Shown in pieces: positions 22,301 through 61,255 of a DNA stretch of 64,000 nucleotides. The stretch is from Cladocopium goreaui (Eukaryota > Sar > Dinophyceae > Suessiales > Symbiodiniaceae). Below the pieces are notes generated by a model. It saw only the letters and a program-made list of their open reading frames with translations, made no database searches and had not been told where the DNA came from. How positions within the stretch are numbered: position 1 is the first letter of the stretch; each line of letters starts with the position of its first letter. Where the stretch lies: positions 656,475-720,474 of the forward strand of contig CAMXCT020006634.1 of the NCBI GenBank assembly GCA_947184155.2, given 5' to 3'. Position numbers and translations under genes: made by a program.

Positions 22301-23596
22301 CGACGCCAAGCTGCCAGGATGTCCCACCCAGGAAACTCCACCTAGGATTTGGTTCCCGACACAAAGAAAAGGAAAGAATTGCCAGCCAGGATGCCCCACC
22401 TAGAAACTCCACCTAGGAAATTTCTCTGCAGAAAGAGGCAAGCCAGCAAATCCCTTAAATTCCAAAAAGGAATCAAAAAGGGAATTCCAAGAAGGAGCAG
22501 GAGCACTGCAAGGAACTTCCACCCAGGAAACTCCACCTAAGTAACTTGCAACCACACAACGGGAAACTAAGGAATTTCCACTCACAAAACTCCACCCAGG
22601 TAAGTCTTGCTGAGGAAGAAAAAATCCAGCACTTTCTAGCCAGGTAAGTCCACCTAGGCAATTTTTCCCCAAGACAAAGGAAAGCAAGGAATTGCCAGCC
22701 AGGATACCCCACCCAAGAAACTCCACCTAGGAAATTTCTCTGGAGAAAGAGGCAAGCCAGCAAATCCCTTAAATTCCAAAAAGGAATCAAAAAGGGAATT
22801 CCAAGAAGGAGCAGGAGCACTGCAAGGAACTTCCACCCAGGAAACTCCACCTAAGTAACTTGCAACCAGACAACGGGAAACTAAGGAATTTCCACTCACA
22901 AAACTCCACCCAGGAAAGTCTTGCTGAGGAAGAAAGATTCCAGCAATTTCTAGCCAGTAAGTCCACCTAGGCAATTTATCCCCGAGACATAGGAAAGCAA
23001 GGAATTGCCAGCTAGAATACCCCACTCAAGAAGCTCCACCTAGGGCCTAGGGAATTTCTCTGCAGACAGAGGGAAGCCAGCAAATCCCTTAAATTCCAAA
23101 AAGGGAATTCCAAGAAGGAGCAGGAGCACTGCAAGGAACTTCCACCCAGGAAACTCCACCTAAGTAACTTGCAGCCAGACAACAGGAAACTAAGGAATTT
23201 CCACTCACAAAACCCCACCCAGGTAAGTCTTGCTGAGGAAGAAAGATGCCAGCAATTTCTAGCCAGGTAAGTCCACCTAGGCAATTTTTCCCCAAGACAA
23301 AGGAAAGCAAGGAATTGCCAGCCAGGATACCCCACCCAAGAAATCCCACCTAGGTTTTTTTTCCGCGGAAAGCGGGAAACAAGCAACTTCCACCACCACC
23401 CGCGAAATTCCACCTAGGGAATTCATCTAGGAATTCCACCCAAGAAGCAAGGAACTTCCACCCAGGAACTCCACCTAGGACATTTCTTGCAAGAAAGAGA
23501 GAAGCAAGCAATTTCTAGCCAGGCGCTTCCACCCAGTTCGAATTTTTAATGAAAGGAATTTCCACCAAAGCCAAAATCGTATAGTACCGTACAACC
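19396..23596 (-). mobile_element. right arm of the giant inverted repeat
   Basis: Reverse complement of the left arm with small indels. It keeps the same zones in mirror order but has only three to four of the 305-bp units (about 22,340-23,430) against about ten on the left, which accounts for the 2.1 kb difference in arm length. Around 21,745-21,790 it retains about 45 bp (TTCCCAATCAGAGTGCTCC) that the left arm lacks. The arms therefore have diverged slightly since they formed. Confidence 0.85.
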
Positions 23597-25793: not shown

Positions 25794-25847
25794 AATGAAT
25801 GCTATTTTGGTTCAAGTTTACTTGAGCCAAAATGAAAGCATTCATTG
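25794..25847 (-). other. palindrome with spliced-leader-like arms
   Basis: Inverted repeat with a 4-nt centre (TTTA, 25,817-25,820). On the minus strand the right arm contains CATTTTGGCTCAAG, which equals the last 14 nt of the conserved dinoflagellate spliced leader. The left arm, read on the plus strand, has TATTTTGGTTCAAG, two changes from the same 14-mer. Confidence 0.45.
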
Positions 25848-43133: not shown

Positions 43134-46100
43134 AAAGACGCAGATATCATGCTTCACTTGATCTTGGAATATGTCCAGAGATGGGTCACAATTCATGCGC
43201 TGCTTGAACAAATTCATTGCCAACGAACCATTCCTCGTTCCTTCATTCACTGGCCTCTGGTTCCATTTTTGAAGTATCCCACTTGGAAACTGCTTGCTAT
43301 TTCAGCTTCCAGAATTCCGCCCAGCCACAGCTGGGCTGGGTCGCCTCCCATATCTTTCTCCAAGCGTCGGCTCCTCTGAGCTGCTCGTTTCTGATCCACA
43401 ATCAATTCCTGGCAGAGGGGATCGTCTTCAGCGGCTACCAACCGGCTACCAACCGGCTACATGGTGCTTCAAAGGTACCACAGTTTCAGTTCATGCAATA
43501 GGACTTGTTGCAACCATAGCACTTGAGATCAAAGTGAGAAGCATATATTATAGATTCAGTTCCAGCTTTGCTGTTGTCATTGGAGCATGACAGGCCATCT
43601 CTGATAAAGATTCAGGCCCATCCCATGGCCGCACCTTTAAGTCTGCCACCAAGTTTGTATTCAGATCAAAGTAACCTCAGCCATGGCTGGTTGTCGGCAA
43701 AATGCCCAATTTTAATCAATTTTACAGGACTGGCTTTCCAAAGCAAACTCTATCTTAACAAGAAAGTCTGGTAATTCACTGCAGAAGCAGTGCAAAACCT
43801 GTCCAACTTGTCCTGAGGTGGATATGGGTCAAGTCATTTTGTACCCCAATAATTGGATGGTGAATACCAAACATCAGATACATAAACTCAAATCTATGGG
43901 TCTGAAAATTTTTGGATCAGGTCTTTCATTTTCCCATAATGTGGGTAAAACAATCATAAACCATCCCCCAGTCATCACCATAAATATATAGGTGGTATAG
44001 TATAAACCTTTCCCAGTCATGGGTGGTTTATGACATTGTTTCACCCACATGAATGGATTTTCTAGGCAATGGATGGTTTCTATGGGATTTTTCTAGGTAT
44101 ATAAATGCTATACCCAATGATAATAGCATTACAAACTGATCCTTGGTATCCAATATTGGAGGTAGAATTGGATTGTTGAATAATGATCATGATAAATACG
44201 CTATACCTATCTATACCTAAGGTTTCTATGGGATTTTTCGATGTTTTTTTTAATGCTATACCCATTTTCCCGGCGCATTTTCCCAAGGCACCATGGCGCA
44301 TGCCATTGACGTTCGCATCCATGGAGCTACAGTCCACCACATCAATGCGCGGCCGCAGCGCCGCCAGCGACGTTGCCGGGTCCTCCGGGTCCTCCTGGGA
44401 GGGACGCCAGGATGGTAACTCCTGAGCGGAGAGCCCATCCTGGACATGGCTAGTGACGGAAATCGTGAGATGTTGTAAATAAAATGTAAAATTGAAATAT
44501 GTGTATGTATATATATATATATAGATATATTATATATATATATATAGATATATTATATATATATATATCGTAACTCATTCTCGATGTTGGAAAAAACTGG
44601 GAATCATTGTGATCTCATGAGCCATATTTCAAAACATCCCTTTCCATCTGCATATCAAAAGCCCCGGTCCATGAGAGGCACCGCCATGAATGCCGTCAAG
44701 CAACGACGTCGCCACCTGGGCATGGGCTGACCAGTGGAAACGGCTCTGTATGGCAACCCAGCACTTTCGTTCGCGCTAGCAACTCCAAAGCCCATAGGGC
44801 GAAGTCGTCACCTCGCGCTTGAGAAAGACCAAGGGTGAGGAATCCAAGAACCAAGCAGTGTCGATGCAGATTTTTCTCCGGCCAGTTCAAGAAGAGATGG
44901 GAAATGATCTCGAACCACATCCAACTTTGTAGGACCAAAAATTACAACAAAATCAGTTCATCATTATCAGAGAAACAGGATAAGTCACAAGTTTGGCGGT
45001 TTGATCGGCTTTTCCAAGGACCCCCCCATCCGTGCAGCGCAAGGGTCGATCCACGTACAAGGTCAAGCGCTCACAGATGCCCATGATGCGGCTCAACATG
45101 GGTTGCTCAAAGTCCGAAAGAGGACAAGAGGCATTGCCTAAGCCAGCCCAGATGAGAAATGGCTCATATTTCAAACACCAAAGGACCCACAAAATGCGTC
45201 GGTTCAATAAATCTCTCAGAAACAGGGGTGCAGAAACCATCCAAAACTGGAGGGTTACTACCGGGTCTACCACATTATAAACCACTCGTTTTGGTGCTTG
45301 ATATGATGAACAAAGCCACTGAAATATGACAGCTCCGCAACTCCCATCAACTTCCTGCCAATGCCAACACTGATGCCCCAACAGCGTCACTATAGAAGCC
45401 GATTCACACATCTTCAATCTGGACAATCTTTTTTGCATGACATGCATCTTTCTTACAAGTCACACTGCTCAACTCAAAAACCTGGTAGTACCAGTTGAAA
45501 TCCTTTTTCAGGGCTTCAGTTGGGATGATAATCCTATATATGATAACTTTCCAAATTCATCTCTCAGCCGGACACCCATTGAGCTGTGCGGCAGAAAGAG
45601 ATGGTCTTGACGAGTGGTTGACTGCCACCCTCCTCCAGTCTTTCAGGCTATACAAATCACTGGAAGTCTAAAACATCATTGGAAGGTGCTGGGTTCACCG
45701 TTCCAAAAGCAACTCCGGTGGATAGGGTCCTTTCCATCATTGGATCGGTTTCAGGGAAATCTGCGAGAAACCGCCATAATACTTCTTGCGGCTTTCTCTC
45801 AAACCATCCCAGTGTTTTCCTAGGTAGCAAAACCCCAAGTCGCTCTTGTAGCTCCTGATTCTGCGAAGACTTCCCTTCCCGCCCAACGGAAGGCGCACAG
45901 AAAGCATGGAAAATCACAAGGCAGACTCCATTGACCATCTAAAATCACAATCAAAGCTAGGTTTAGAGATGATTTGGCCAATTGAAAGTAGGGAAAAAAA
46001 AAACTAAAACAGCCGTCCTGGTTCAGCCGTTCCAAATGCTCCAGCGCAGCAGTCACCAGTTCACAGCCCATGGAATGGGCCATGAGATGCATTTCCTGCA

Positions 46101-49100
46101 TTGAAAGTGGCCGGCTATCTTAATGCCAAGTTACATAATTCAAAAATCACTAGGGGGGTCCCAAAAATGTTGTACCGTTTTTCTATTTCAATCTGGGGGC
46201 ACAAAATTTGTGGGACCCCCCTGGTGATTTTTGAATAATGTGAGGAAAACAAAAGTGTTTACCATCCCAACTTTTCCCCTTTTCTTGTGGGGGGCGTAAA
46301 ACCATCAAAAATGATCTTAAAATATCTGTGGTTGATCATTGCTTGCAATGTTACTAACATTAGTCATGTTTAATGACTCCAAAATTGTCAAGATGCTAAT
46401 GCAAGTCCGAAGGGATTGGATCTGGGATGTGGAGGATATGGCCTGTTTTCCAACATGAAGTGGCGTGGTGATTGTTGCCCTGTTATGAGGATTTGTATTC
46501 TGTTGCAACATAGGCAAACCCAATAAACATATGGAGGTTTCCTAAAATGGGGCTACCCCCAAATCATCCATTTGAATAAGATTGTCCATTACAAACCATC
46601 CATACCCCCATTCATGGAAACCTCCATTTCACGGTGTCTTGGTCGCGATCAATTCTTGCTGCGGCCCCTCATCTATTTGCTCGCCTTCACTCCAGCCCGT
46701 CGCAGGCACGCAAGGAATTCCGCCAAGTCGGGGGCGAAGTCCACGAGCTGCTTTCGCACTTGGAAGAAGGAGGGAATGCGTCCTGCGGCCGGGTTTTCGT
46801 CGAAATGGATGTGCCTCAAAATGGTGAATTTAGCGCCAAAATGGCTCTGTCTATCTGGAAATGATACTACAACAGCTATTTTTAGACAAACCCAATTCAC
46901 AACATGCAAGGTCATCTTCCCCGCAGGACTTGAGCATATTGCAGCCATGTACAATGTTTGAGTTGCACTATCCTACATGAATTCAGCATTACGCTTCGCA
47001 TGGTCCAACTCACTGGATTTGTTTTTTAGGATACCTTGCCAGGAACAAACATTTTTCATGGATTTGGATTGCAAATATTATATATATATACATATACATA
47101 TACTTGTATATGTATACATGTGTATATATATATATAATTATATATATATATAATTATATATATATATGAATATACATGGGAGACATCCATAGAAATCCTA
47201 ATTTCCTGTAGATGTTCCCATCCCTCCAAGGCCTGTAGGCCAAGAGAACACCAAGGGCAACACGCTGGAGCCGAAGTTGCCTTAGCAAACAAAAGGACAC
47301 CAGGAGACCAGGCTCCAAACAGCCCAAGCACTGTATTTGATGCCTGTAGTACCAAGAAAGAAGACCTCACTTCATTACATTTCAGAGATTGTAGAGGTGC
47401 CTTTACAGCTCGTCTTGTCAGTTCGATCCTTGCCTGTTTGGAATCTTGAACAAAATCGCAAATACCAGGTTAAATTGAATAGTCCAAGAATGTTTTGTGA
47501 TACATGCTCAAATTTGTGCCTTCAAAAAATCCAACCAACCCCACTCCCATTTTCCCCCAGGACCAAAAAATATACCAATCCGCTGGGGTCGAATCCTCCG
47601 ATCCTTCGAAATCTGATTTCAACTTTGACGCGTCACCCAAAGTCATCAGCTGGCCCAAGCGCATGCAAGCCCAGTCCTGGGCAGAAATGGAACCATGACT
47701 TCAGGCAATGCCCAGGTTTTCATATCAGTGAGGATGCTTCCGATTCCATCCAAGGTCCCTCTTTACATTCCAAAGGTTGATGAACTTCATGTGTCATTTC
47801 CGAAAGAATTGCTATCCCGGATGTCACAAACATCTTGTGTCGTCCGTTCCTGCTGTGGGTTTCATCCCTGCGCCCACCGAGCCAAGGATCAATGGGACAG
47901 TTGTATCCGTGAACGAAAACCAACACCGAATCCGCAGGCGTCGCCAGAAAGGACATTCGGGCTGTGGAGTTGGCGTCCCGAGCGTCCCTTGTCTCTGATC
48001 CTAGTGGAGGCGGGAAAAGTTTCAGAACTTTCGATGATTTTCAATTAATTAGTAATGTGATATGATTTATACGATGATATAATCCATATATTTCACATTA
48101 TTTCACAGGGAAAAAGAAGGATGGAACTATCATTGCCATTGAGAATACCCAACTATCCAAAATGGTGCCAACCAACTTCCATCGCCTGCAGTGGATTGAA
48201 GGTCATGCACCTGACGAACCCCAGTGCCAATGATGTCCCTTAACGGGAGAACGGGAGAGGGTGGGAAGTGCGGAGGGTTGCCGGGGTTTTCCCCTAATTG
48301 ATCAAACAAAGCAGGACATCTACCAGGTTTCGCATCACATCGATGTTGGGAACCCTCTTAGCCACAGCTTCACTATTGCAATTCCCAAAGCTCACGAGTT
48401 CCAGTGCCAAAGTATCCCCAGAGCCCCAAGCGTACCAAGCTGTGGAGATAGTCCTCAACAAATGATCCCGTGACCTTCATGCACTGATGTTGATATTTTT
48501 GGGCTCTAAAACAGCACGTTATCCTCCATGTTTCTTGGTAATTTGGAAAATCCTCTGTCAAAAGCATAGTGACTTTCGCACCTTTTCTTGATATTTCTTG
48601 ATCACTTCTTCAACAAATCTCCTGATCCTGATCCTGTGTCACGGCAATCCCACCAACCCTTCCACACTGAAAGCCGCCCCAAGCACCATCTGCTCTGCAT
48701 GGGGAAAGGTCTTCTGGTGGTATTCAAACAGCTGGGGCAAATGGGCCAGGAAGGCTCCTGTCGAAGCAACCTACAGACTTGGTCAGGCCTCTGGTATCGC
48801 ATCATCTTATGGGTGGTGTTGCCTTGTAATTGGAAAAGCCATTCCCACTTAGAATCTCCACAAGTTTTACATACCAGCGTGTGACAAGAACTATCTGCCA
48901 GGTGAAAAAGTGGCAAAGGGAGGATGCCTCATAAGTTAATCTTGTCTGTTGCGACTAAAAAGGGAAGGAATACGGTCAGAAGGTGTGTTACAGTATCAAG
49001 TGTGATGTGCCTTCGCTCGCAGGTAGGCCAAGTACTCAAAACTGAAAAGGAGAAACAGCACAGGGAGATTCGCTGTTTCTATCCTTCTTTCAAGTCTTTG

Positions 49101-52100
49101 GACCTGAGAATGCCAAGGAATCTCACACATCGATTACTTTCTCCGCGGTTTGATTAAGAAAAGTATGCTGATAGGGATTCTCTTTGAATGTATGTCCCTC
49201 AGATTTTCCGCGAAGTGCTGGAAACGCCCCAGTTCGCAAGTCCCCTATGGATTTTCCCATTCACGATACTGTATGTTGCAAGTTCATGCAAATTCCCAGG
49301 CTTGATGTGCTGAACAGACCCTCCCAGACCTGAAGCTGAACATTCCACCCCACAGGTGCCGAACAAGAAGGTCTCTGTCTCAGGCGGTGGCAGGGTTGGG
49401 GCAGCACAGAGTTGGGCAAGTTTTCATGATACCATCCCCCATTCTTGGAGTGGTACACCCGTTTCACCTATAGACGCCATAATTAGCCCATAAGACGCTT
49501 TGCTGTGATTGACAGAAATCCCAAAACACCTATCTCGATGACCTTTGACCTCACCCAACTTCTTGGGACAGAAAAACGAACTGCTGATGAGCAACTCGCT
49601 CGCGCGTCCAATGTAGCTCCGACAGGCCTTCCAGGCGCTTTGTCCCGTAGCCGGTCTTCAATCCTGGCCACATCACTGACATCTGGGAGCAAAGGCAGAA
49701 CAATGACAAGCACCTTTGAAAAGCCCAAAAAATGGATGGCTCATGAGCCTCTGAATGCGGTGATAGTGAGGCAATACTGGAACGCAGCAACACAGCGAGG
49801 AGAGAGCAGAGCAAGGAGAGAGCAGAGCAAGGAGGGAGCAGAGCAAGGAGAGAGGAGAGCAAGGAGAGAGCAGAGCAAGAAGAGAGGAGAGCAAGGAGAG
49901 AGCAGAGCAAGGAGAGAGGAGAGAGCAAGGCAAGAAGAGAGAGAGCAAGGAGAGAGCAAGGAGAGACCAAGGAGAGACCAAGGAGAGAGCAAGGAGAGAG
50001 CAAGGAGAGAGCAAGGAGAGAGCAAGGAGAGCGAGGAGAGGAAGGAAGAGAGCAAGAAGGAGAGCAAGAAGGAGAGCAAGAAGGAGAGCAAGAAGGAGAG
50101 CAAGGAGAGGAAGGAGAGGAAGGAGGAGAGCAAGGAGGAGAGCAAGGAGGAGAGCAAGGAGGAGAGCAAGGAGGAGAGCAAGGAGGAGAGCAAGGAGGAG
50201 AGCAAGGAGGAGAGCAAGGAGAGGCAGGAAGGAGAAGAGCAAGGAGGGGAGCAAGGAGGGGAGCTAGAGGAGAGAGCAAGGAGAGGAAGGAGGAGAGCAA
50301 GGAGGAGAGCAAGAAGGAGAGGAAGAAGGGGAGCAAGGAGGGGAGCAAGGAGGAAAGAGCAAGGAGGACAGAGCAAGGAGAGCAAGGAGGAGAGAAGGGA
50401 AGCAAGGAGGCAAGAAGGAGAGCAAGGAGGGGAGCAAGGAGGAGAGTGAGAGGGAGAGCAAGGGGGGGAGCAAGACGGAGAGCAGGAGGCAAGGAGAGGA
50501 AGGAGGAGAGCAAGAAGGAGAGCAAGGAGGAGAGCAAGGAGAGGAAGGAGGAGAGCAAGAAGGAGAGCAAGAAGGAGAGGAAGGAGGAGGGCAAGAGGAG
50601 AACAATTAGAGGAAGGAGGAGAGCAAGGAGGAGAGCAAGGAGAGAAAGGAGGAGAGCAAGAAGGAGAGCAAGGAGGCAAGAAGGACAGCAAGAAGGAGAG
50701 CAAGGAGAGCAGAGCAAGGAGGGGAGCAAGGAGGAGAGTAAGAGGGAGAGCAAGGAGGGGAGCAAGAAGGAGAGCAAGGAGAGGAAGGAGGAGAGCAAGG
50801 AGGAGAGCAAGAAGGAGAGCAAGAAGGAGAGCAAGGAGAGCAAGGAGAGCAAGGAGAGCAAGAAGGAGAGCAAGGAGAGGAAGTAGGAGAGCAAGGAGGA
50901 GAGCAAGAAGGAGAGCAAGGAGAAGAAGGAAGGAGGGTAGCTAGAGGAGAGAGCAAGGAGAGGAAGGAGGAGAGCAAGGAGGGGAGCAAGAAGGAGAGGA
51001 AGGAGAGGAAGGAAGGAGGAGAGCAAGAACCATACTATTCCAGCGGTCAGAATCGCTGTTCGCGGAAATGATTATGCTGCAAGATTGGGTCCAGCCCAGA
51101 AATCATCACTCTCCCTGCAGAAACAAGAGACACTGGAGCCGTCCCACCCCGCGAAAGGTCCTCGCGAGATGGCACCAGAGCCAAAACACCTCAGGGATGA
51201 AGAGCGATGATTTTTTTTCTGGCTATTGGCTCATGATCCAAACACCAGAAAGCCAGAATGCGCTTCTGAGGGGTAAAAAAATAATAATCCCGGATGTTGT
51301 TTTTGACCGGGGCCAGCGTGGCCGTGGCACCTGGACACAAAGGGAACCACAGGCTGACCATGTTGCCAGGTGCCATTCAAGACCTCTCCCGGCTGTGGGC
51401 CGTGGGGCAGCTGAAAACCCAATTTGACCATTTGGGCGGTATTGAAGACCATCATGAAGTTTAGCATATGTGCCATGGTCAAAATATGTGAAACTGGTTT
51501 ATGCTCATCCATCCCGGTGTGGAAATCCTAGAATAATGGATGGGTACAAAAAACCTTGTGGAAATGGTTTAAGGACCATACCCCCAAGGACTGGGTATAT
51601 CATAGCATTATCATCCAGCATTTTATTGTAGTTCGTTATGTACATGTATCTATATATTATATGCATATCTATCTATATATATATGCCATTATGTCCCGGT
51701 AAATATACTTTAAATCACCATGTTTGATGCTCAAATCCATCAATTTTGACCCGTGTCACATTTGTTGGGAATCATTATGTGGGGATTATGGTGAATGATA
51801 AGTACCAACTATCACTTATTGATGATTATACCATGGATTGTTGGAATATGCCATGGTATATAATCCAACCATAACCTCACCGTGGCGCACCTCACCATGA
51901 TACGAGTTGTCTTGCCACTCACCGAAGCCATGGGGTCGTCCATTCTCGTCCTGAGGTAAGCGATGAAACACCCTTGAGACGTCGAAAATGTATGAAAGTG
52001 TGGAAACATCCGGATTCAATGATTTAAACCAACATGGTTTTCATGGTTTTTGTGCGGGTGACTGAAATCAATGATAAATGATATTGAATCAACTACCATG

Positions 52101-55100
52101 GGGATTTGGCCAAACTGGCATGTATTCACCTTATTTGCACCATGGGGATGTTCCATTCTCATCTGACATTTGGTGCCGGAAGGCCATCCGCATCTCCGGG
52201 TCCTTGTCCCCTCTATATCTGAACTCGCGGCGGGACAGACTGGTCCAGCCATACGGCAAGTAACTGTAGCCCTCCCTGGCACCATCGCTGGGCTTGACAC
52301 AACTCACACAGCGGCGGAAAGTACTCGGAATACGCGGATGTACTGTAATTGGTAACAAATGGTGATGTGAAATTAGAAACTTAATGGTGATAGAATGGTG
52401 ATATAATTGGGAGACAATGGGGATATCATGGTGATATAATGGGACATATGCTTAGGAAATTCTGCTTGTAGCTCCTTGACTCCCTGTATTTCTTTGGGAA
52501 TGTGGTTACCCATAGCTCGATACACTGCTCCAAGACACCCAGTGTCTGCTGGACGTATTCGCCAGAAGCATCGGAGAGCAAACTTCTGGTGGCAATATTT
52601 CACCTGGGTGAAGGGCAAAGCACTAAAAGGAACCTGCTGTCAGAAAAGACACTGACAGTAGGTGTCTGCAAAAACACTCCGCCCGGGAGAATCGCTTCGA
52701 GTGGTCTGCCATCCTATGGGATCGTATGTATATGTACATGTATCTATCTATCTATATATTTCTTTTTTTATGTACATGTATATGTAATGCATATATATAT
52801 ATATATATTGTACCATATCTATATATATATTATATATATATTATATATATATATATTATACGTCATATATTCATATTGTGAGTGTCCAAGAATTCATCGT
52901 CCACTTCGCCAAGTTGCCAGGAAAGGATAAACTTTGTAGATCCAAATCCAGGCCAGTAGAGTGATGGCTTCCAGACTCAAGAACACCGACAGCACCACCT
53001 TCTCATCATCCGTCATCCAGGGCTCTTCACGCCAGGGGCCTGCAACGGCTGTGAAATACCGTGAAATACGGTTGAAGAACAACGGATTCCATCTGGTGGA
53101 GAAGAAAACCCAAGGTTTTATGGGTAGTTTAACCCCAGAACAGAATGATCAACCAGGGATTTTTTCAACGCAGCTTTGCAGCTGCTCAGCGGTCAGCCAA
53201 GTTGGAAGCTTCACCCTGCCCAGGTGCACCTGATCGAGTTTCAGGCCAAAGCCAGAGCTCCCAGACCACCAAGAGCCTCCGATGGGCCACAGCAGGCAAG
53301 TGCCACCAAGCGTATCTCTGTTCGAAAGCACGAGGATCTATGTAGATATAAAGATATATAGCTGGTTTGGATGAGCCGTACCTACCAAGAAGATCCAAGA
53401 AGCAGATTGGGATAGAAGATCGATCAACCCTCTGATCTGCTTGCGAGATGTGGGACTGGGGATTGGTGGGAATTTTACTGCTTTGGCTTGCTCCCAAACC
53501 ATATCAAATCTGAGCTGAATTCAATACAGTAAATAACTCGGGGCTTCTGTGAGTCTATTCCCATGTAGGCATGGCTCAAGCTTCAGTACCCAAAAAATTG
53601 GATGATGCGTGTTATATAATATTCTAAAACACCACTAGTATCTGTGAGCTGATCATCATGGCAATCTCATCCATGGCACATAATCCAAGTCTTTGCCCAA
53701 AGAGAGGCCACATTGTCCTTGTTGGCGATCGTCCTGGCACCCAGCGCTTGCACTTTTGTGACCGTTTCTACTGTCAACAGATAGCGTCCTCTGCAGATTC
53801 AAATTTATTTTCACACTCCAACTCGCGCCTGTTCAGTGTGAATGCCACCGCACAGATCGTCACAAGGATTGGCAGCGCCAGGTAACCAATGTCCTGCAGC
53901 CAGGGACCGGGCAAGGAGGCTATCACAGCTGCCGGGGCCCGCAGGTGGCACCTGCTGTGGGTTCCCGAAGAGTTGTGTCCGCAAAGCAGCCAGGCCGTAA
54001 AGGGAAAAGCCTGGCGAAGTCACCAAGGATTCCCAGGATCCCCACCCCACCTGCAAAGTCCTTTGAAATGCATGCTGTGCTCGGCTTACTGAACTTTAGC
54101 CATATTGCTAGTCAATGCCATTCATGGAGGCTGAGGCTCACCCATCTAGGCTTGTTTCATGGCCAAACCACACCACCTCCCCACAAGGGCTGTCCTTTTC
54201 TCTTCAACAAATTGGTTCCGACACAGCCACACTTGGTCTTCTTGGTCGCCGCTTCCGTTCACCCAACACCATCCCCAACTTGTCCGGCTGCGGCCGAAAA
54301 ATAATCATAGCTCCATGCACCTGCACATCTCCCAGCACTGGAAGGTGCAACAACTGCTGACAGTTCTGCAAATGGAGCTCCTGATAAACCGACGCCCAAT
54401 TTGTGGCTACTCCCACCCGTCCAGCGACGCTGCGAAAGAAACCCGGTACATCTTGCCGCTCCGCGCGGAAGTAGGGAGGATTCTGCAAGGATTTCCGGAT
54501 GCCTCTGGGAGATGCAAAGTCCGTGGGCCAAAACGCCAAGCCGGCTTTGTAGTTCCCAGCATGCGTCTTATTCAAGCCACAGAGGCGGCCGCGGAAGTTC
54601 ACGGACATAATGCCATAGTCAAAGTTGCCAGCGGTTAAAAACCAGGAAGTCAATACATCATTGCTGGATACAAATCCACCTTCATCCTGAAATCGTCTTT
54701 TCTGATCTCTGAGCCACGTGGCATCCACCTCCCAGGCCTGCCATCGATGTTTAGGCCGCAGCAACGCATCCAGCAGCGAGCCCCAGCGTGCAGCCCGCGA
54801 AGACGGCCAAGCCTGCTGCGGTCCCAGCGCCTGGGCGACGGCCCTGGGGAAGTCCGCCTTCCGCCAGGGGTTCAGCCGCGCCCGCGCTGGGCCAGCAGAG
54901 CCTTGGTAGGTGATCCCAGCCACCTGGGTGGGGCGCTGATCCAGGGCACCATAGAGGCGGTAGTAGGTGAAGCCATCACCCAGGACATGGCTCATGGACA
55001 CCACCAAACAGAAGGTGTCGGTTGTATGTGTTTGAACCAAGGCCACGGAGAAAAGGGGCTCGGAGGCATCCAAACATTGAATTCCGGGCTTCACTGTGAG

Positions 55101-55607
55101 GTCTTGCAAAGTCGCACGCATTTTCATGAGTGGCATATGCATCTCCAGGTCTTCTCGCAGCGTCTGCTTGAAGTGTTTGGAGAAATCCTGAACCTCGCTT
55201 GGTACCCAAAGGTTCACCATCCCAGTGGCTTTATCACGCCGTAGTTGCCCTGCCAGCCACGGATTCGCTCGAATCAGTTCTTCAGTCATGCCACACAGAA
55301 TTTCCACATCTACTGGACCCTGGTAGAAGGTCACTGTGGTGATGGATGGCAACATCAGAATGGGTCCTGCTTCATCTGGCAGCAGTGGCAAGGCACCAGC
55401 CCTACATCGTAGCCCTGAACGGCGGCCCCGGAGTCCAGGGACGGCAGCCCCAGCGAGGGCGGAAGCGACCACTGGGCCCCAGGTGCCACCTGGCAGCCAC
55501 GTGGCACGTATCCGTATGTTGCACCTGACATGGGACGCTGCACTTGGCGCAGCAAGTCTCCATCTCAAAGTTGAGGCTGACACTAACAGCCCCACTTCAA
55601 CATCCAT
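43134..55607 (-). CDS. multidomain acyltransferase-like / membrane / MORN / alpha-beta hydrolase gene, 25 exons
   Basis: Gene model assembled by eye; every junction keeps the frame and the total is 3,582 nt (1,194 codons). Exons, 5' to 3': 54,263-55,607; 54,024-54,050; 53,817-53,928; 53,154-53,317; 52,933-53,039; 52,510-52,585; 52,141-52,342; 51,896-51,972; 51,308-51,385; 49,555-49,682; 49,270-49,378; 48,658-48,757; 48,518-48,581; 48,396-48,453; 47,891-47,994; 47,632-47,676; 47,206-47,263; 46,685-46,758; 46,018-46,095; 45,820-45,874; 45,048-45,137; 44,732-44,817; 44,292-44,394; 43,307-43,425; 43,134-43,256. The ATG at 55,607 follows an in-frame TAG. No terminal stop was found, so more exons follow, perhaps one at about 42,830-43,005. 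Donors of the first 14 introns are GT, then mostly GA or GC. A short exon may be missing between the 44,292 and 43,425 exons. Predicted to be membrane-bound. Confidence 0.75.
43307..47994 (-). CDS. exons 15-24: DUF900-type alpha/beta hydrolase domain
   Basis: The order of landmarks fits the DUF900 family of serine hydrolases: strand plus oxyanion motif SVLVFVHGYN (exon 15), RLGQLMTLGD (16), VLPLVFSWPTG (17), LVDFAPDLAEFLACLRRAGV (18), nucleophile elbow HLMAHSMGCELV with Ser in A-H-S-M-G (19), LGFCYLG/NASCPLSDFE (20-21), RLTLYVDPRGDDFALWA with the likely catalytic Asp (21-22), RIDVVDCSSMDANVNGMRH with the likely catalytic His (23), and QKRAAQRSRRLEK (24). Such enzymes cleave esters or related bonds; the substrate is unknown. 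The usual 'HSYF' after the catalytic His is not visible, so an exon may be missing there. Confidence 0.75.
43937..44053. mobile_element. small terminal-inverted-repeat element in an intron
   Basis: About 117 bp with arms of about 40 bp. Left: ATGTGGGTAAAACAATCATA then AACCATCCCCCAGTCAT. Right: CCCAGTCATGGGTGGTTT then ATGACATTGTTTCACCCACAT. No coding capacity. It lies in the intron after exon 23. Confidence 0.65.
44505..44572. repeat. TA microsatellite
   Basis: Runs of TATATA with AGATATAT interruptions, upstream of exon 23 in the intron. Confidence 0.9.
46131..46243. mobile_element. small terminal-inverted-repeat element in intron 18
   Basis: Arms 46,138-46,163 and 46,211-46,236 (ATTCAAAAATCACTAGGGGG against CCCCCTGGTGATTTTTGAAT) pair almost perfectly over 26 bp and more loosely beyond. 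About 105-113 bp in all. Confidence 0.75.
46531..46627. mobile_element. second, unrelated inverted-repeat element in intron 18
   Basis: 97 bp with ends ATGGAGGTTTCC...ATGGGG and CCCCCAT...GGAAACCTCCAT. Related sequences appear at about 38,385-38,490 and 31,925-32,020, so this is a dispersed family. Confidence 0.65.
47075..47170. repeat. TA-rich microsatellite
   Basis: TATATA/CATATA repeats in the intron after exon 17. Confidence 0.85.
48396..49682 (-). CDS. exons 10-14: linker of unknown fold
   Basis: Five exons of 58-128 nt reading, among others, DVARIEDRLRDKAPGRPVGA, FLFGTCGVECSASGLGGSVQ, FLAHLPQLFEYHQKTFPHAE, HYAFDRGFSKLPRNMEDN and YLHSLVRLGLWGYFGTGT. All have AG acceptors and GT donors, and lengths agree with the phases. 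In each exon at least one other frame is open, so the frame was chosen by phase continuity. No domain recognised. Confidence 0.5.
49796..51030 (+). repeat. 1.2 kb polypurine tract
   Basis: Almost only A and G on the plus strand, built from GGAGGAGAGCAA-type units with an isolated C every 10-15 nt. It lies in intron 9 of the minus-strand gene, so the transcript carries a pyrimidine tract ending about 110 nt before the exon 10 acceptor. Both strands show ORFs of 300-490 codons made of Glu/Lys/Ser/Arg or Leu/Ser/Pro/Cys; these are composition artefacts. Confidence 0.9.
51308..52342 (-). CDS. exons 7-9: linker and MORN-like repeat
   Basis: Exon 7 (202 nt) encodes a charged segment with EGYSYLPYGWTSLSRREF. 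Exons 8 and 9 join as GRPHGFGEWQDNSYHGE and LNGTWQHGQPVVPF, which fits the MORN pattern (GxGxW..G..YxGex...G.W..G). MORN repeats often bind membranes or phospholipids. The junctions TG|G (Trp) and G|AG (Glu) are split codons that rebuild the motif exactly, which supports the model. Confidence 0.6.
52510..54050 (-). CDS. exons 2-6: membrane segments
   Basis: Exon 2 is only 27 nt (VGILGILG). Exon 3 encodes a likely membrane helix, IGYLALPILVTICAVAF, followed by the basic end TLNRRE. Exon 4 reads LLWPIGGSWWSGSSGFGLKL and LPTWLTAEQLQSCVEKIPG. Exon 5 encodes MTDDEKVVLSVFLSLEAI and then TLLAWIWIYK, a second likely helix. Exon 6 is basic (FALRCFWRIRPADTGC). All five donors are GT. The helices suggest that the acyltransferase and hydrolase parts are tethered to a membrane; topology cannot be fixed from sequence alone. 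Confidence 0.6.
52725..52870. repeat. TA-rich microsatellite
   Basis: TATATA runs with TACATG interruptions in intron 5. Confidence 0.85.
54263..55607 (-). CDS. exon 1: CoA-dependent acyltransferase-like domain
   Basis: 448 codons without intron. The motif HVLGDG (His207, Asp211, Gly212) within SMSHVLGDGFTYYRLYG is the HxxxDG site shared by chloramphenicol-acetyltransferase-like folds (BAHD, condensation and wax-ester/DGAT-type enzymes), where the His removes a proton from the acceptor. Before it lies ELIRANPWLAGQLRRDKATG, like the N-terminal part of such acyltransferases. After it come SSNDVLTSWF and a C-terminal strand GAMIIFRPQPDKLGMVLG. No DFGWG motif typical of plant BAHD enzymes was seen. 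Substrate unknown; an acyl-CoA and an alcohol or amine acceptor are inferred from the fold only. If exon 2 were not used, the frame would run on to a stop at about 54,204. Confidence 0.7.
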
Positions 55608-57193
55608 GGTGCTCCAGGCTACGACTTTGGAGCCTGAAGGCTATTGAATGCCATGAAGCGTCCTGCTAGTCCAATCTTCCTGGAAAGCTTTTCGAGAAAT
55701 TTGATCTGAAACCAGCCCACAAAGACCTTCAATCAAGGGTTTGGGTGGCCCCTCAATGATCAGCTGTGGCATGCGCCCAAGCGTGAAGCTGTGCAATTGC
55801 GGCCAGCTGGATGAGGCTGTGGCTCCAAATCATCAGCCTCTAGATTAAACTCTTAACTTGTATAGGTCTGCCAAGGTCCCAAAGAAACCCCAACATCCGT
55901 GGTGGTCGCAAAACATGTTGGCTGACAAGAGTAACTGAACAAATCCCCCCAAACCGGCCCAGTAAGGCACCTAGAAACATGGCCACCTCCGAAATGGCAG
56001 AGCAAACCCCGCGCGCCATTAACCTGCACTGGTGCAGAGTCTCAGAGGGACCTTGAGGGATATTGTGGATCAACCAAAAGTTGCCCTAGTCAGGTGACAA
56101 ACATCTCATTGTAGTTCAGGAGTCTTGGGTTTCCACATATTCCATTCCTACCCTGGGAACTGCTAGGGTGATGCTCCCAGGCTGAAGGCATTCTGTAACC
56201 CTGTCCGCAGTTCCGGTCACAGGGCTGCATTCATGAATATACTTCACGAATCTAACACACGCTCCACCCTATCAAGAAATAAGAGTAGTTCGTATCCATT
56301 TTATCCATTCGATTCTATCAGCCGCCTCCCCTTGGCTTGTCGCAGCTGACGCCGCTCCTGCCAATCTACCACCGAACAGCCAAAAGCTGATCGCTATCGC
56401 TTGGTTTCTTAAAACGTGGGGGAAAGCAAAATTCCAATCATCCAATACTCATTATTCTGTAAACCATGAATGAATCAGCAAGTTCACCAACAAAAAAAGG
56501 AATCATCATTACTAGTCTGGGGATTTGGTGCATCGAATGGTGAAAAATGGAGCTCTCGGCTCCTCCATAAAGAAGAAGGACTCGTGCAGCGCCTCCGGAA
56601 ACCATCCATCGGATTCAAGGGATATCGATCCCTCTCGCTCCGCCTAGCTGGGCTGGTTCACGGCCACCCCCCCCATATGGTATGGGGGTTACCCCCCCTC
56701 ACCCCGCACATGGTATGGGGGACCACCAAACGCTGGACCATGTGTATATACATATATAAATATATAAATTAGAGTATCACGTTTTGTATGTGTATATATA
56801 TATATGTGTATGTATGTATGTATGTATGTACGTACGTACGTACGTACGTAGGTAGGTAGGTAGGTAGGTAGGTAGGTATGTATGTATGTATGTGTATATA
56901 TATATATATATGCAAGTGCTGGAACACTTGTCTCATACAGTCCAAACCATGGCTGTATTTCGAAGTCATTTGATGTCCGAGGAAAATAGGTTACTGCTGG
57001 GTAGCACACCGCTTTGCCGTGTCAAGGGATAGCTTGTAGCCATAGCCTCCAATCTTTGTGACTTGGGAACTTCAGTTCGCTACTGACCTTGTTGGACCAT
57101 CCCAGTTGGATGGTAGCTTTGAGCCTGAATTGAAACCAGGGACCTGAAAAGAAAAGGCCTGGAACGTGTTTTACCTTCCAGGAGACAACAGAG
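55608..57193. other. upstream region and copia leader
   Basis: 55,840-56,040 is open in all three minus frames and may hold a last exon of an upstream gene; not resolved. 56,745-56,915 is a TATG/TACG/TAGG tetranucleotide tract. 57,111-57,125 (TGGTAGC...GAGC) weakly resembles a primer-binding site for initiator tRNA, as expected before copia gag. No 5' LTR could be delimited without its 3' partner, which lies outside the window. Confidence 0.4.
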
Positions 57194-60100
57194 ATGGCCG
57201 GGGTTCAGAAATCGAAAGATGGGGTACCTCAATGGGATGGTGACTCTGCTTCGTTCCAAGAATATGAAGAGACAGCACTCCAATGGGAACAGAGCATAGC
57301 ATACCATAAGAGGTACTTAGCTGGACCTAGGTTGGTAGCTGAACTGTCAGGATCAGCTCGGAAGCATGTGATGGGGAAGCGGCCAGAATGGCTGTCCTAT
57401 GACGGGGGTGTGGCACATTTGCTGAGCCACCTTCGTAACTGTCTGGGACGACCCACCATTCCGGAGCTGACCGAGTTCCTCAACCGCTACTTCAGACAGA
57501 GTAGACGCAGAAGATTCGAAACCATGAATCAATACATCACCAGGAAGAATGAGATCTACCACCGTGCTCGCCAGGCACTGTCTCGAGTACAAAGCCATTA
57601 CCAACGAGATCGTGAACCAAGGCCGGCATGGCAAGGAAGGCACTGGTGGCAGCCCCCCCATCAGACTTGGTGGGAAGGCTGGCAGCCAGAGACTCCCTCA
57701 GAGGCACCTGTCAGTGAGGTTGAGCCCGGTGCTTCCGAACCAGCGGCAGCAGGATCTGAGCCCTCAAGAGGGCAGGCTGATGATGATGATCGCTGGGAGA
57801 ACTATGGGCACCACATGTCCTCTCACTACCAGTCATGGCAGTGGACCTCACAGCCAAAAGCGAGCTATGGGAGTGGGAGCACCTATGATCCCAGCGAGGA
57901 TGAGCCTTGGAAGCTCCACACCGATGAGCTCCTTCCTGAATTTCTTCAGGGATGGTACATGTTGATCGATGCGGGTTTGGACAGCACCTCCCGCAACATG
58001 GTCCAGACTGCCCTCAAAGAGGACTACCGAGTGCACCGGGTGTCGCAAGAACTACGACAACAGTGGCCTGATGATGACCTGAAGAAGTTTGACCAGCAGA
58101 ACAAGGGCACTGCCTATCTCCAGGATGAGGTGGACGCCGAGGAGGATGAGTGGCCTGACGCTTGGGCCACAGATGATCTCACCGAAGAAGCTCAGGTCCT
58201 TTTTGGAGCAGCAGAAAAAGAAGCTCAGGAAACCTACGCGATGATCCAGCAAGGGCGCAGAACCTTGCGTGAAGCTCGAGCTCGTCAACACCAAATGAGG
58301 TTGAATCGTCAGTACTACAAGAACACCTTTGCCAAGGACAAGGTCTATGGCAACCGCTCCTCTCCTTCTTCGCAGAGTGGCTCCACTGCGGCGACTTGCC
58401 TGCGTTGTGGCAAACAACACAGGACCTCAGACTGCCCTCTTGGCCGAGACAAGTCCGAGGGGCAGTCACAGGCCCAGAGTGCAGAAGAGGCACCGCTTGT
58501 ATGCTTCACAGAGGACCCTGTGGCCTGTGCAGCTCAGACGACCCAGTCCATGAAGTCAACTCGTGAGGCCGTGATGTCTGGCTATGGAGTGATTGATGGT
58601 GGTGCAACACGCACTTTGGGCTCAGTCACCGCAATCCAGTCCGTGATGGACATCAACCAGGACAAGTACGGTGACCATGGTATCACCGAAGTGGACGTGG
58701 CCAACAAGCCCACGTTTGGTTTTGGCAATAGCTCTCAGAACCAGTGCATCTCGACGGCCCAGCTGAAGATCAAGGCCAATGAGAAGCCAGGCACCTTACA
58801 GATCCACGCTCTGAACCAAGGTCAAGGACCTATCTTGATCTCCATCGACACCTTGCGCAAGTTGAAGGCAGTGATTGACTTCAGCGAAGACCTGATGGTG
58901 CTTCGCGCCATTGATGACTCCAAGATGATTCCCCTAGAACGCTCAGCTGCAGGACACCAATTGCTGCCGCTGACTGAGGACCTCATGAAGCATGCAATGC
59001 CATGCACTCGCCAGGTTCCCAGCCTTAGGAGTTTTTGCTACGGACATCTCCTCTCTGATTCCCCGCCTGAGGAAGAAAGGGAGGGCAGTTTGTGTCAGGC
59101 AACTGTTTTGACGGCCACCGGTCATTTGAAACATGAACACATGTCATGTCATGATCATGAGGGTTATCATGGTGTTGATGGGTTTTGTAGCCGAAGTGAT
59201 GTCATTGCTGCCAGTGAGTTTTCACACACATACACCACAGCATGCGCATCACAGAAGTTTGAGGGACCAAAACCGGAAGTGCCCAGTGAACCTTCCTCAT
59301 CGGCATCTACAACTGAGTGCCATGTCTCGCATGAGTCAGAAGGAGCTTCGTGCCGAGATCCAGCGGTTGGGAGAGGATCCTCCTGCGAAGTGGACCAAGG
59401 CCGAGCTGCAGCACCGCCTGTCCGAGCTCTATGTGGAGAAGGATGTGGCACCACCGGGCCAGAAACCCCAGACCGCCCTGCGTTAGCAGGTGATCGCCAT
59501 GAACACCAACAGCAAGACCAAGAAGCTCCTGCAGATGTGGTGCCAAAACACGTTGGGCATGCCAATCTCGGGCAACGAGACAATCCCTCAGTTGCAGCGT
59601 GCAGCAATGACCCGCATCTACCAGGAGACCACTCCAGATGCGCAGGATCCAGTGGGTTTTGGCAAGGCAGCCTCCATGACCTACCAGGAGATTGCCACCG
59701 ACCAGCAGTACTGCAATTGGGTCAAGACCACAGCGGCCGAGGGCGGTTGCTCAGTTCAGCTTTCGCGCCTAGCGAAATGGCTGGTGACCCAAGAGACTCA
59801 GCCCACACGCACCATGGATGTCAAGATGAACTACCTCCAACAGGAGCCATCGCCGGTGAAGCACAAGCCGATGCAATCAGTAGACATCAAGAGCAGTGCC
59901 AGCCAGCCCAGCAGTATGAGCGACTCCACGGTACAGATCCTATGTCAGTTGACCGAAGCTGTGAAGGACCTCAAGGAGGAAGTGGCGGATCTTCGCCAAG
60001 ATCAACCTCGACGCACCCGGAAGAAGGACAGCGAGATCAGCTTCAGCATGGTGAGCGAGCAGAACCCATGAACAGTTCCGTCCTGCAACCTGAAGTGCCT

Positions 60101-61255
60101 AGCTTAGTTGATCCATCACAGGAACGAAGATTCCTAACTGAGTCAGCCGCCAGACACTTAGAACAGCAGTCTTGGAACTTAGCTCCAGGTTTTTTCCAGT
60201 CGCTTGTTCAGGATCACCAAGAGAAAAGAACTTTATTTATGGAAGTTGCGTGTTCCCCTGAAAGTGTTTTGAGTTCGGAGATTCAAAAACATGCTGGATA
60301 TCCTGAAGCTGCCATTAGATGTGCTCACTGGAATAATCATGACTTGCGCACTGATGCGGGGGTTCGGTTGATTTTAGACACCATTGATGCCAAAAGACCT
60401 TTGCACGTGTGGATCTCGACAGAATGCGGACCATACTCCCCAATGCAAAATTTGAATCAACGTACTGAAGCCCAGCGTGCCGAGCTGGAGGAAAAACGCC
60501 GTGATGCGCTGCGGCAATATGTGGGAGCTAGCTGTGTCTTGCATTATGCCATTCAAAAAGGTATCCACACGACTTGGGAATGGTCTCACAAATGTCATGC
60601 TTGGCGATTGCCTTTGATTCAGAAAATCATGCAACGGTATCAGCCTTGGATTAGCGTTGTAAATGGTTGTCAGGTGAACCTTAGGGATGAAAAGACCAAG
60701 AACCTCTTGCATACGGGATGGAAAATCATGACCACTCAACGACGCATGGCCCAAATGTTGGATTTACCCTGTCGATGCCCCAAAAACATTGAACATCAAA
60801 GGTGTGAAGGTAGGATGACTTCCCAAAGTGCCTTTTATACGATTGAGTTCGCGAAAAGAGTTGTCAAATGTGTCATGCAGGAACTCACTCATACGATGTT
60901 GGTTGATGAAATCAGGGGTGAAACTCAATTGGTTCCTTGGTTTGGGAGTGGGGCATGTTGCATGTGTGAAGAACTTGAAGCTCATGGTAGGAAGCAAACT
61001 TGCGGTTCTTGTCTGTTGAATCAGGGTTATCGGGGACATGTTGTTGGTTCATGTGAAAAGACTGATTTGTCAATGGTGAATGATTTGGGACACGATGATA
61101 CTGGTTCTGTTCAAAAATCTGATGCGTTTATTCAAAAACAATTGTATCAACTTCATGCCGCTACGGGCCATGGTAGCATTCGTAACCTGGTGGATGCCCT
61201 GAAAAAGCATGGTGTTTCCCGTAGGGTTGTGGAACTTGCCCAGAAATTCCAGTGA
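57194..61255 (+). CDS. Ty1/copia polyprotein, gag-protease to integrase zinc region
   Basis: 1,353 codons. Gag-like N-terminus with RYFRQSRRRRFETMNQYITR; a zinc knuckle CLRCGKQHRTSDCP (C-x2-C-x3-H-x4-C, from residue 402), which packages element RNA; the aspartic protease active site GVIDGGATRTLGS (Asp468); then a long Ser/Pro/His-rich stretch (about residues 710-960) that coincides with a second-frame ORF. The frame regains normal composition from the Met at 60,068 (CGPYSPMQNLNQRTEAQRAE and so on). It ends in the integrase zinc region LHAATGHGSIRNLVDAL...KFQ, stopped by TGA at 61,253-61,255. The ATG at 57,194 is the first in this frame after the leader. Confidence 0.85.
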   Translation: MAGVQKSKDGVPQWDGDSASFQEYEETALQWEQSIAYHKRYLAGPRLVAELSGSARKHVMGKRPEWLSYDGGVAHLLSHLRNCLGRPTIPELTEFLNRYFRQSRRRRFETMNQYITRKNEIYHRARQALSRVQSHYQRDREPRPAWQGRHWWQPPHQTWWEGWQPETPSEAPVSEVEPGASEPAAAGSEPSRGQADDDDRWENYGHHMSSHYQSWQWTSQPKASYGSGSTYDPSEDEPWKLHTDELLPEFLQGWYMLIDAGLDSTSRNMVQTALKEDYRVHRVSQELRQQWPDDDLKKFDQQNKGTAYLQDEVDAEEDEWPDAWATDDLTEEAQVLFGAAEKEAQETYAMIQQGRRTLREARARQHQMRLNRQYYKNTFAKDKVYGNRSSPSSQSGSTAATCLRCGKQHRTSDCPLGRDKSEGQSQAQSAEEAPLVCFTEDPVACAAQTTQSMKSTREAVMSGYGVIDGGATRTLGSVTAIQSVMDINQDKYGDHGITEVDVANKPTFGFGNSSQNQCISTAQLKIKANEKPGTLQIHALNQGQGPILISIDTLRKLKAVIDFSEDLMVLRAIDDSKMIPLERSAAGHQLLPLTEDLMKHAMPCTRQVPSLRSFCYGHLLSDSPPEEEREGSLCQATVLTATGHLKHEHMSCHDHEGYHGVDGFCSRSDVIAASEFSHTYTTACASQKFEGPKPEVPSEPSSSASTTECHVSHESEGASCRDPAVGRGSSCEVDQGRAAAPPVRALCGEGCGTTGPETPDRPALAGDRHEHQQQDQEAPADVVPKHVGHANLGQRDNPSVAACSNDPHLPGDHSRCAGSSGFWQGSLHDLPGDCHRPAVLQLGQDHSGRGRLLSSAFAPSEMAGDPRDSAHTHHGCQDELPPTGAIAGEAQADAISRHQEQCQPAQQYERLHGTDPMSVDRSCEGPQGGSGGSSPRSTSTHPEEGQRDQLQHGERAEPMNSSVLQPEVPSLVDPSQERRFLTESAARHLEQQSWNLAPGFFQSLVQDHQEKRTLFMEVACSPESVLSSEIQKHAGYPEAAIRCAHWNNHDLRTDAGVRLILDTIDAKRPLHVWISTECGPYSPMQNLNQRTEAQRAELEEKRRDALRQYVGASCVLHYAIQKGIHTTWEWSHKCHAWRLPLIQKIMQRYQPWISVVNGCQVNLRDEKTKNLLHTGWKIMTTQRRMAQMLDLPCRCPKNIEHQRCEGRMTSQSAFYTIEFAKRVVKCVMQELTHTMLVDEIRGETQLVPWFGSGACCMCEELEAHGRKQTCGSCLLNQGYRGHVVGSCEKTDLSMVNDLGHDDTGSVQKSDAFIQKQLYQLHAATGHGSIRNLVDALKKHGVSRRVVELAQKFQ
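59321..60071 (+). CDS. overlapping ORF with SAP-like motif inside the copia polyprotein
   Basis: In another frame from the polyprotein, an ATG at about 59,321 opens a segment MSQKELRAEIQRLGEDPPAK with WTKAELQHRLSEL, like a SAP helix-turn-helix (DNA/RNA binding). It is cut by TAG at 59,484-59,486. It resumes with FGKAASMTYQEIATDQQYCN, VKTTAAEGGCSVQLSRLAKW and an end coiled-coil, ILCQLTEAVKDLKEEVADLR, stopping at TGA 60,069-60,071. That stop overlaps an ATG of the polyprotein frame (ATGA). The composition here is more protein-like than that of the polyprotein frame, so this may be the ancestral coding frame. Confidence 0.6.

Follow-up and report, generated by a model that had tools for sequence, protein, structure and literature searches.

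The DNA analysed here, a window of 64,000 nucleotides (nt) on contig C5993 of the 1.17-Gb assembly of the dinoflagellate Cladocopium goreaui, carries on its minus strand an acyltransferase-like open reading frame (ORF) without introns (gene A, upstream) and an intron-split gene for a DUF900 hydrolase (gene B), each of which is probably a real gene. An earlier note on this DNA had read the two as one fused gene. We consider it reasonably probable that they are two co-oriented neighbouring genes rather than one, and the features on which the argument turns are the following.

54204 to 55607, minus: gene A, an intronless ORF of 467 codons (ATG at 55607, TGA at 54206-54204), HxxxD acyltransferase-like (H207, D211).
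54263, minus: last base of exon 1 in the earlier note, a possible GT donor, GTGAACGG, in phase 1, which fits the acceptor before 53039.
53060 to 54204, minus: spacer between genes A and B, of which no second copy was found; one frame reads as a helix, DIGYLALPILVTICAVAFTLNR, at 53893-53828.
52905 to 53016, minus: gene B exon 1, transmembrane anchor, MTDDEKVVLSVFLSLEAITLLAWIWIYKVYPFLATWR, with its own ATG; as an internal exon it could begin at 53039.
52164 to 52342, minus: exon 2, GYSYLPYGW...DPEMRMAFRHQMS, with a GA donor.
51891 to 51950, minus: exon 3, MORN-like by eye, DENGRPHGFGEWQDNSYHGE.
51331 to 51383, minus: exon 4, VLNGTWQHGQPVVPFVS.
51148 to 51189, minus: exon 5, tentative.
49555 to 49675, minus: exon 6, tentative.
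48643 to 48770, minus: exon 7, outside the homology coverage.
47891 to 47987, minus: exon 8, start of DUF900, VFVHGYN, with a GA donor.
47630 to 47676, minus: exon 9, DUF900.
46685 to 46814, minus: exon 10, DUF900, with a GC donor.
46011 to 46095, minus: exon 11, nucleophile elbow AHSMG (Ser331), the DUF900 match of a 99-amino-acid (aa) frame.
45048 to 45137, minus: exon 12, DUF900, ending LTLYVD; the preceding beta-strand is apparently missing.
44732 to 44811, minus: exon 13, RDDFAL, with the triad Asp (383/384) beside the junction.
44292 to 44439, minus: exon 14, VDCSSMDANVNGMRH, with the triad His457 beside the junction.
43247 to 43425, minus: exon 15 and the TGA stop.

Gene A sits inside a minus-strand open frame of 478 codons and carries H207 and D211 in the motif SMSHVLGDG, so that the HxxxDG acyltransferase of the earlier note holds as a long minus-strand ORF from 55607 of HXXXD-like identity. 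No Pfam family, PF02458 included, was matched at E ≤ 1. The NCBIfam model acyl_WS_DGAT (TIGR02946) matched residues 101-300 weakly (2.4e-5), its 23.4 bits standing against a curated cut-off of 309.95. At least four paralogous loci are present in the same genome, two on contig C3804 and one each on C319 and C6054, a lower bound from the 12 candidates that were scored. The nearest, on C6054, is 43% identical over the matched part, with its domain split over several frames; at about 9525-9660 of L022, a stretch of this contig, IFKPSQNT is closed by a TAG in frame or by a possible GT donor, where gene A runs on. In an alignment of four sequences (gene A of the window, the two from C3804 and the one from C319, the fragmentary C6054 copy being left out), identity to gene A was 30-32% and H207 and D211 were invariant in all four. 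TIGR02946 was matched at E ≤ 1 by one of the four family members, and PF02458 by none of the four in this alignment (A1) even at E ≤ 5. Scanning the genome with the alignment returned 25 candidate stretches, two of them bacterial loci, one of which holds a frame of 353 aa with an open 5' end that clearly matches PF02458 Transferase at 7.5e-29 and is related to gene A at 24% identity over 188 residues (hhalign probability, 88%). On account of this bacterial relative, the weak acyl_WS_DGAT match and the invariant H207 and D211, we regard gene A as a putative acyltransferase-like protein of the HXXXD superfamily, belonging to a dinoflagellate family, whose profile scores do not place it in BAHD or WS/DGAT proper and whose substrate can be inferred at most. 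Searches of solved structures gave nothing credible (best E values, 0.031, 2.5 and 0.68).

The model of gene B comprises 15 exons and 516 codons from the ATG at 53016 to the TGA at 43249-43247, and its phases are all consistent. Boundaries were set by phase, AG acceptors and GT, GC or GA donors, and in the hydrolase part also by the fit to DUF900; 10 of the 14 donors are GT, 3 are GA and 1 is GC, all of which are reported in use among dinoflagellates (PMC11453091). The earlier note had let the gene end at 43134, a position at which no stop codon closes (a TAG stands at 43132-43130), and its list of 25 exons, of which five lengths were given, was not reproduced, although its first exon of 1,345 nt (55607-54263) does end at a legal GT donor. 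One hydrophobic segment stands out in the hydropathy of gene B, at residues 8-26. A minisatellite of 1.2 kb at 49808-51027, with 12- and 33-nt periods and purine-rich on the plus strand, falls within an intron of the model and gives rise to extended but spurious reading frames on either strand.

For gene B, the earlier proposal of a DUF900 hydrolase was sound. The spliced protein scores 51.0 bits against DUF900 (PF05990), for which the cut-off is 20.5, a value somewhat flattered because exon boundaries were partly chosen to fit this domain. An automatic parse with hand-chosen anchors, from which the minisatellite was excluded because a first free parse had placed exons there, gave 34.8 bits, and the 99-aa frame holding AHSMG reached E 0.0017 and 18.3 bits on its own, just below the cut-off. 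With gene B as the tblastn query, 334 records of plasmids passed E ≤ 10 (best value, near 1e-6); two plasmid-encoded DUF900 proteins among them were about 27% identical to gene B over 222-226 residues (E values of 5e-13 and 4e-11 in a three-sequence set). In the alignment with the plasmid proteins, Ser331, Asp383/384 and His457 coincide with the triad residues, and since this similarity crosses both junctions, it supports the exon boundaries at the Asp and the His, which were themselves chosen with DUF900 in view. The triad alignment had five rows (gene B, the pair of plasmid proteins, and L015 and L016, both ORFs from this assembly); the nucleophile is HSMG in four and HSYG in L016, the Asp site is DD in four and DK in L016, and the His is present in four and gapped in L016, gene B having all three residues. 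The strand preceding NASCPLSDF is missing from the model (about 45.1-46.0 kb), and no convincing small exon for it was found between 46011 and 45137. Taken together, the sequence points to a membrane-anchored DUF900 alpha/beta serine hydrolase with a candidate Ser-Asp-His triad. The proposed MORN repeat fell away: in a single frame, PF02493 reached 10.1 bits against the Pfam cut-off of 22.5, and the family was absent from the matches of the spliced protein at E ≤ 1, the likeness being one of motif by eye.

DUF900 is described as a mainly alpha-proteobacterial family, and searching the genome with PF05990 brought up two intronless ORFs of bacterial type, L015 on contig C3872 and L016 on the 7.38-Mb contig C1, which may be a bacterial chromosome within the dinoflagellate assembly. 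Gene B itself was not returned because that search ran exon by exon. No second copy of gene B was found in the genome at E ≤ 0.001. A locus on C397 (E 0.22) was rejected as a chance match, with no hydrolase match above noise within 30 kb, as were L029 (E 0.27) and L030 (E 0.55), and the paralog search also gave a match on C6108 at E 6.4.

Whether A and B are one gene or two was judged from the end of gene A, its paralogous loci, the start of gene B and the spacer. Gene A stops 21 residues past Met446, its last conserved methionine, and the three long-ORF paralogs (C3804 twice, C319) stop 27, 31 and 57 residues past the equivalent position; two of the three can be aligned with gene A up to residue 458-459, beyond the donor proposed at codon 448. 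When the spliced gene B protein was run through tblastn (E ≤ 1), every one of the 14 rows came from the window, and the flanking sequence covered at the four paralogous loci, no less than 9.6 kb on the downstream side of each, yielded no match. The anchor of gene B is immediately preceded by an in-frame ATG (53016), which follows a CAG acceptor by 23 nt. With the donor phase of the earlier note and the acceptor phase at 53039, 235 single in-frame linking exons are possible in the spacer with GT, GC or GA donors; the average over 200 dinucleotide shuffles is 213, and 61 of them reach 235. With GT donors only, there are 72 where the shuffles average 58.7, and 37 of 200 reach 72. In two stretches of the spacer the open frames do not exceed chance length; 88 of 500 shuffles equal them in one and 137 of 500 in the other. 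As linking exons and open frames are both at chance level, exon lengths that keep one frame, which the earlier note had counted toward a single gene, are not evidence for it. Two genes are favoured because gene A has its own stop near where its long-ORF paralogs stop, because no hydrolase match was found in the flanks covered at the paralogous loci, because gene B has its own ATG, and because the spacer, for which no second copy is found, is at shuffle level. The sequence thus mildly favours transcripts that end at 54,204 or begin separately at a later exon, which the earlier note had itself named as speaking against its gene.

Several observations pull the other way, toward one gene of about 970-1,200 residues that joins the acyltransferase, an anchor helix or helices, a GYSYLPY/MORN-like module and the DUF900 hydrolase, a reading that we hold to be possible but doubtful. 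Both genes lie on the same strand, only about 1.2 kb separates the stop of gene A from the ATG of gene B, and that ATG has no distinctive context. A direct splice from 54263 to 53039 is phase compatible, as expected by chance in 1 case of 3, and gives ...LGMVLGPWREEPWMTDDEKVV. The tail of gene A resembles the common tail of its paralogs weakly, and the alignment of one of the three long-ORF paralogs (L006) ends at residue 447, right at the proposed donor. The paralog on C6054 may be a broken gene or may have an intron at the end of its domain, which would also count for the fusion. In the spacer, the first 500 nt are GC-rich as exons are, with one frame a strongly hydrophobic helix, and three segments have codon scores of 18.4, 16.5 and 15.8, the level of accepted gene B exons, the best plus-strand score outside the minisatellite being 14.7. 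These scores are weak evidence for coding there; out-of-frame readings within exon 1 reach 19.1 and 17.1, showing that the score follows GC, and codon-usage gene finding was rejected since the score rises with GC and the minisatellite gives a signal on either strand. What tells against the fusion is that exon 1 carries its own stop, that the paralogs of gene A look stand-alone, that the possible linking exons are such as chance supplies and that no second example was found in this genome. Among the titles and abstract openings retrieved on DUF900, dinoflagellate gene fusion and wax ester synthase/DGAT, none names this architecture.

It is also conceivable, though very improbable, that retroposition placed gene A, as an intronless relative of the C6054 paralog with its introns, upstream of gene B, and that transcripts occasionally read through. 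The intronless state of gene A beside the split C6054 domain and the 14 introns of the gene B model would fit this, but the window has no spliced-leader match with three or fewer mismatches, and none of the best gapped spliced-leader scores lies near 55607. The C3804 and C319 relatives also have long intronless ORFs, and the lack of introns may therefore be ancestral in the family. Genome-wide, the 21-nt spliced-leader core has 172 exact copies (81 forward and 91 reverse) and its reversed control none, which bears out the dinoflagellate origin. At 54111-54094 lies a candidate leader relic that could have shown where gene B begins, but it was not significant, with a score that 26 of 100 shuffled spacers attained. 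Elsewhere in the window, at 25821-25834 on the minus strand, the final 14 nt of the leader recur without a mismatch in an apparent short inverted repeat, perhaps as a relic or as part of a hairpin element.

The rest of the window holds a tandem array at 12995-16137 (period 303, 10.3 copies, 92% matches) and a second one at 22328-23354 (period 314), whose unit resembles, by eye, the reverse complement of the 303-period unit. An open frame of 1,373 codons on the plus strand at 57134-61255 is by eye retroelement gag-pol-like, with a zinc-knuckle-like CLRCGKQHRTSDC, and no Pfam match was found for it at E ≤ 0.001. Scans of viral contigs found no relatives.

If A and B are indeed two genes, each mRNA would receive its own trans-spliced leader and the transcripts would be separate. 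HXXXD enzymes use a catalytic His to deprotonate an acceptor hydroxyl or amine, which attacks acyl-CoA, and gene A would be a stand-alone acyl-CoA acyltransferase of this kind, esterifying a lipid alcohol or a similar acceptor, with His207 as the base and Asp211 in a structural role. Gene B would combine an N-terminal signal anchor, the GYSYLPY/MORN-like module and the alpha/beta hydrolase, with a predicted membrane topology. In alpha/beta hydrolases a nucleophilic Ser attacks an ester or amide, and Ser331 of the Ser331-Asp383/384-His457 triad may cleave such a bond at the membrane surface. A joint acylation-deacylation role of the two products is a mere possibility that presupposes their fusion or co-expression, and the part in toxin or polyketide metabolism suggested earlier is speculation. 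A single anchored protein that both forms and breaks an acyl ester we think unlikely, although such a polypeptide could serve, for example, in lipid remodelling or in a cycle of acyl transfer at the membrane of a dinoflagellate. If real, it would unite a synthase and a hydrolase in a single chain, which is unusual, and would mark domain shuffling in dinoflagellates. There is also a lesson in method, in that chaining exons without tools easily merges neighbouring dinoflagellate genes.

The HXXXD superfamily, with a two-lobe chloramphenicol-acetyltransferase-like fold, includes the BAHD enzymes (PF02458) and the wax-ester synthase/DGAT enzymes (TIGR02946), and gene A resembles it in the HxxxDG motif, the weak acyl_WS_DGAT match and the PF02458 relative in bacteria. 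It differs from BAHD members in having no PF02458 match and no DFGWG, a BAHD motif, in its ORF translation, and from wax-ester synthase/DGAT in falling far under the TIGR02946 cut-off and in having Ser in place of the first His of HHxxxDG. Gene B shares HGYN, AHSMG, RDD-AL and the triad His with bacterial DUF900 hydrolases, of which a Rhizobium member is reported to have an N-terminal transmembrane helix as well (PMC11878206), but it is intron-split and eukaryotic, carries an extra module between anchor and hydrolase and has one beta-strand not found in the model. As one of two genes, it would add an anchored dinoflagellate member to a family that a 2024 classification places as bacterial (PMC11878206) and for which alveolate members are already known, Plasmodium 0709900 and 1359900 being listed as DUF900 hydrolases (PMC9464883). 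Brown algal ROCO proteins are reported as larger eukaryotic proteins that carry DUF900 as their C-terminal domain, with different partners, namely LRR and ROC-COR (PMC11378527).

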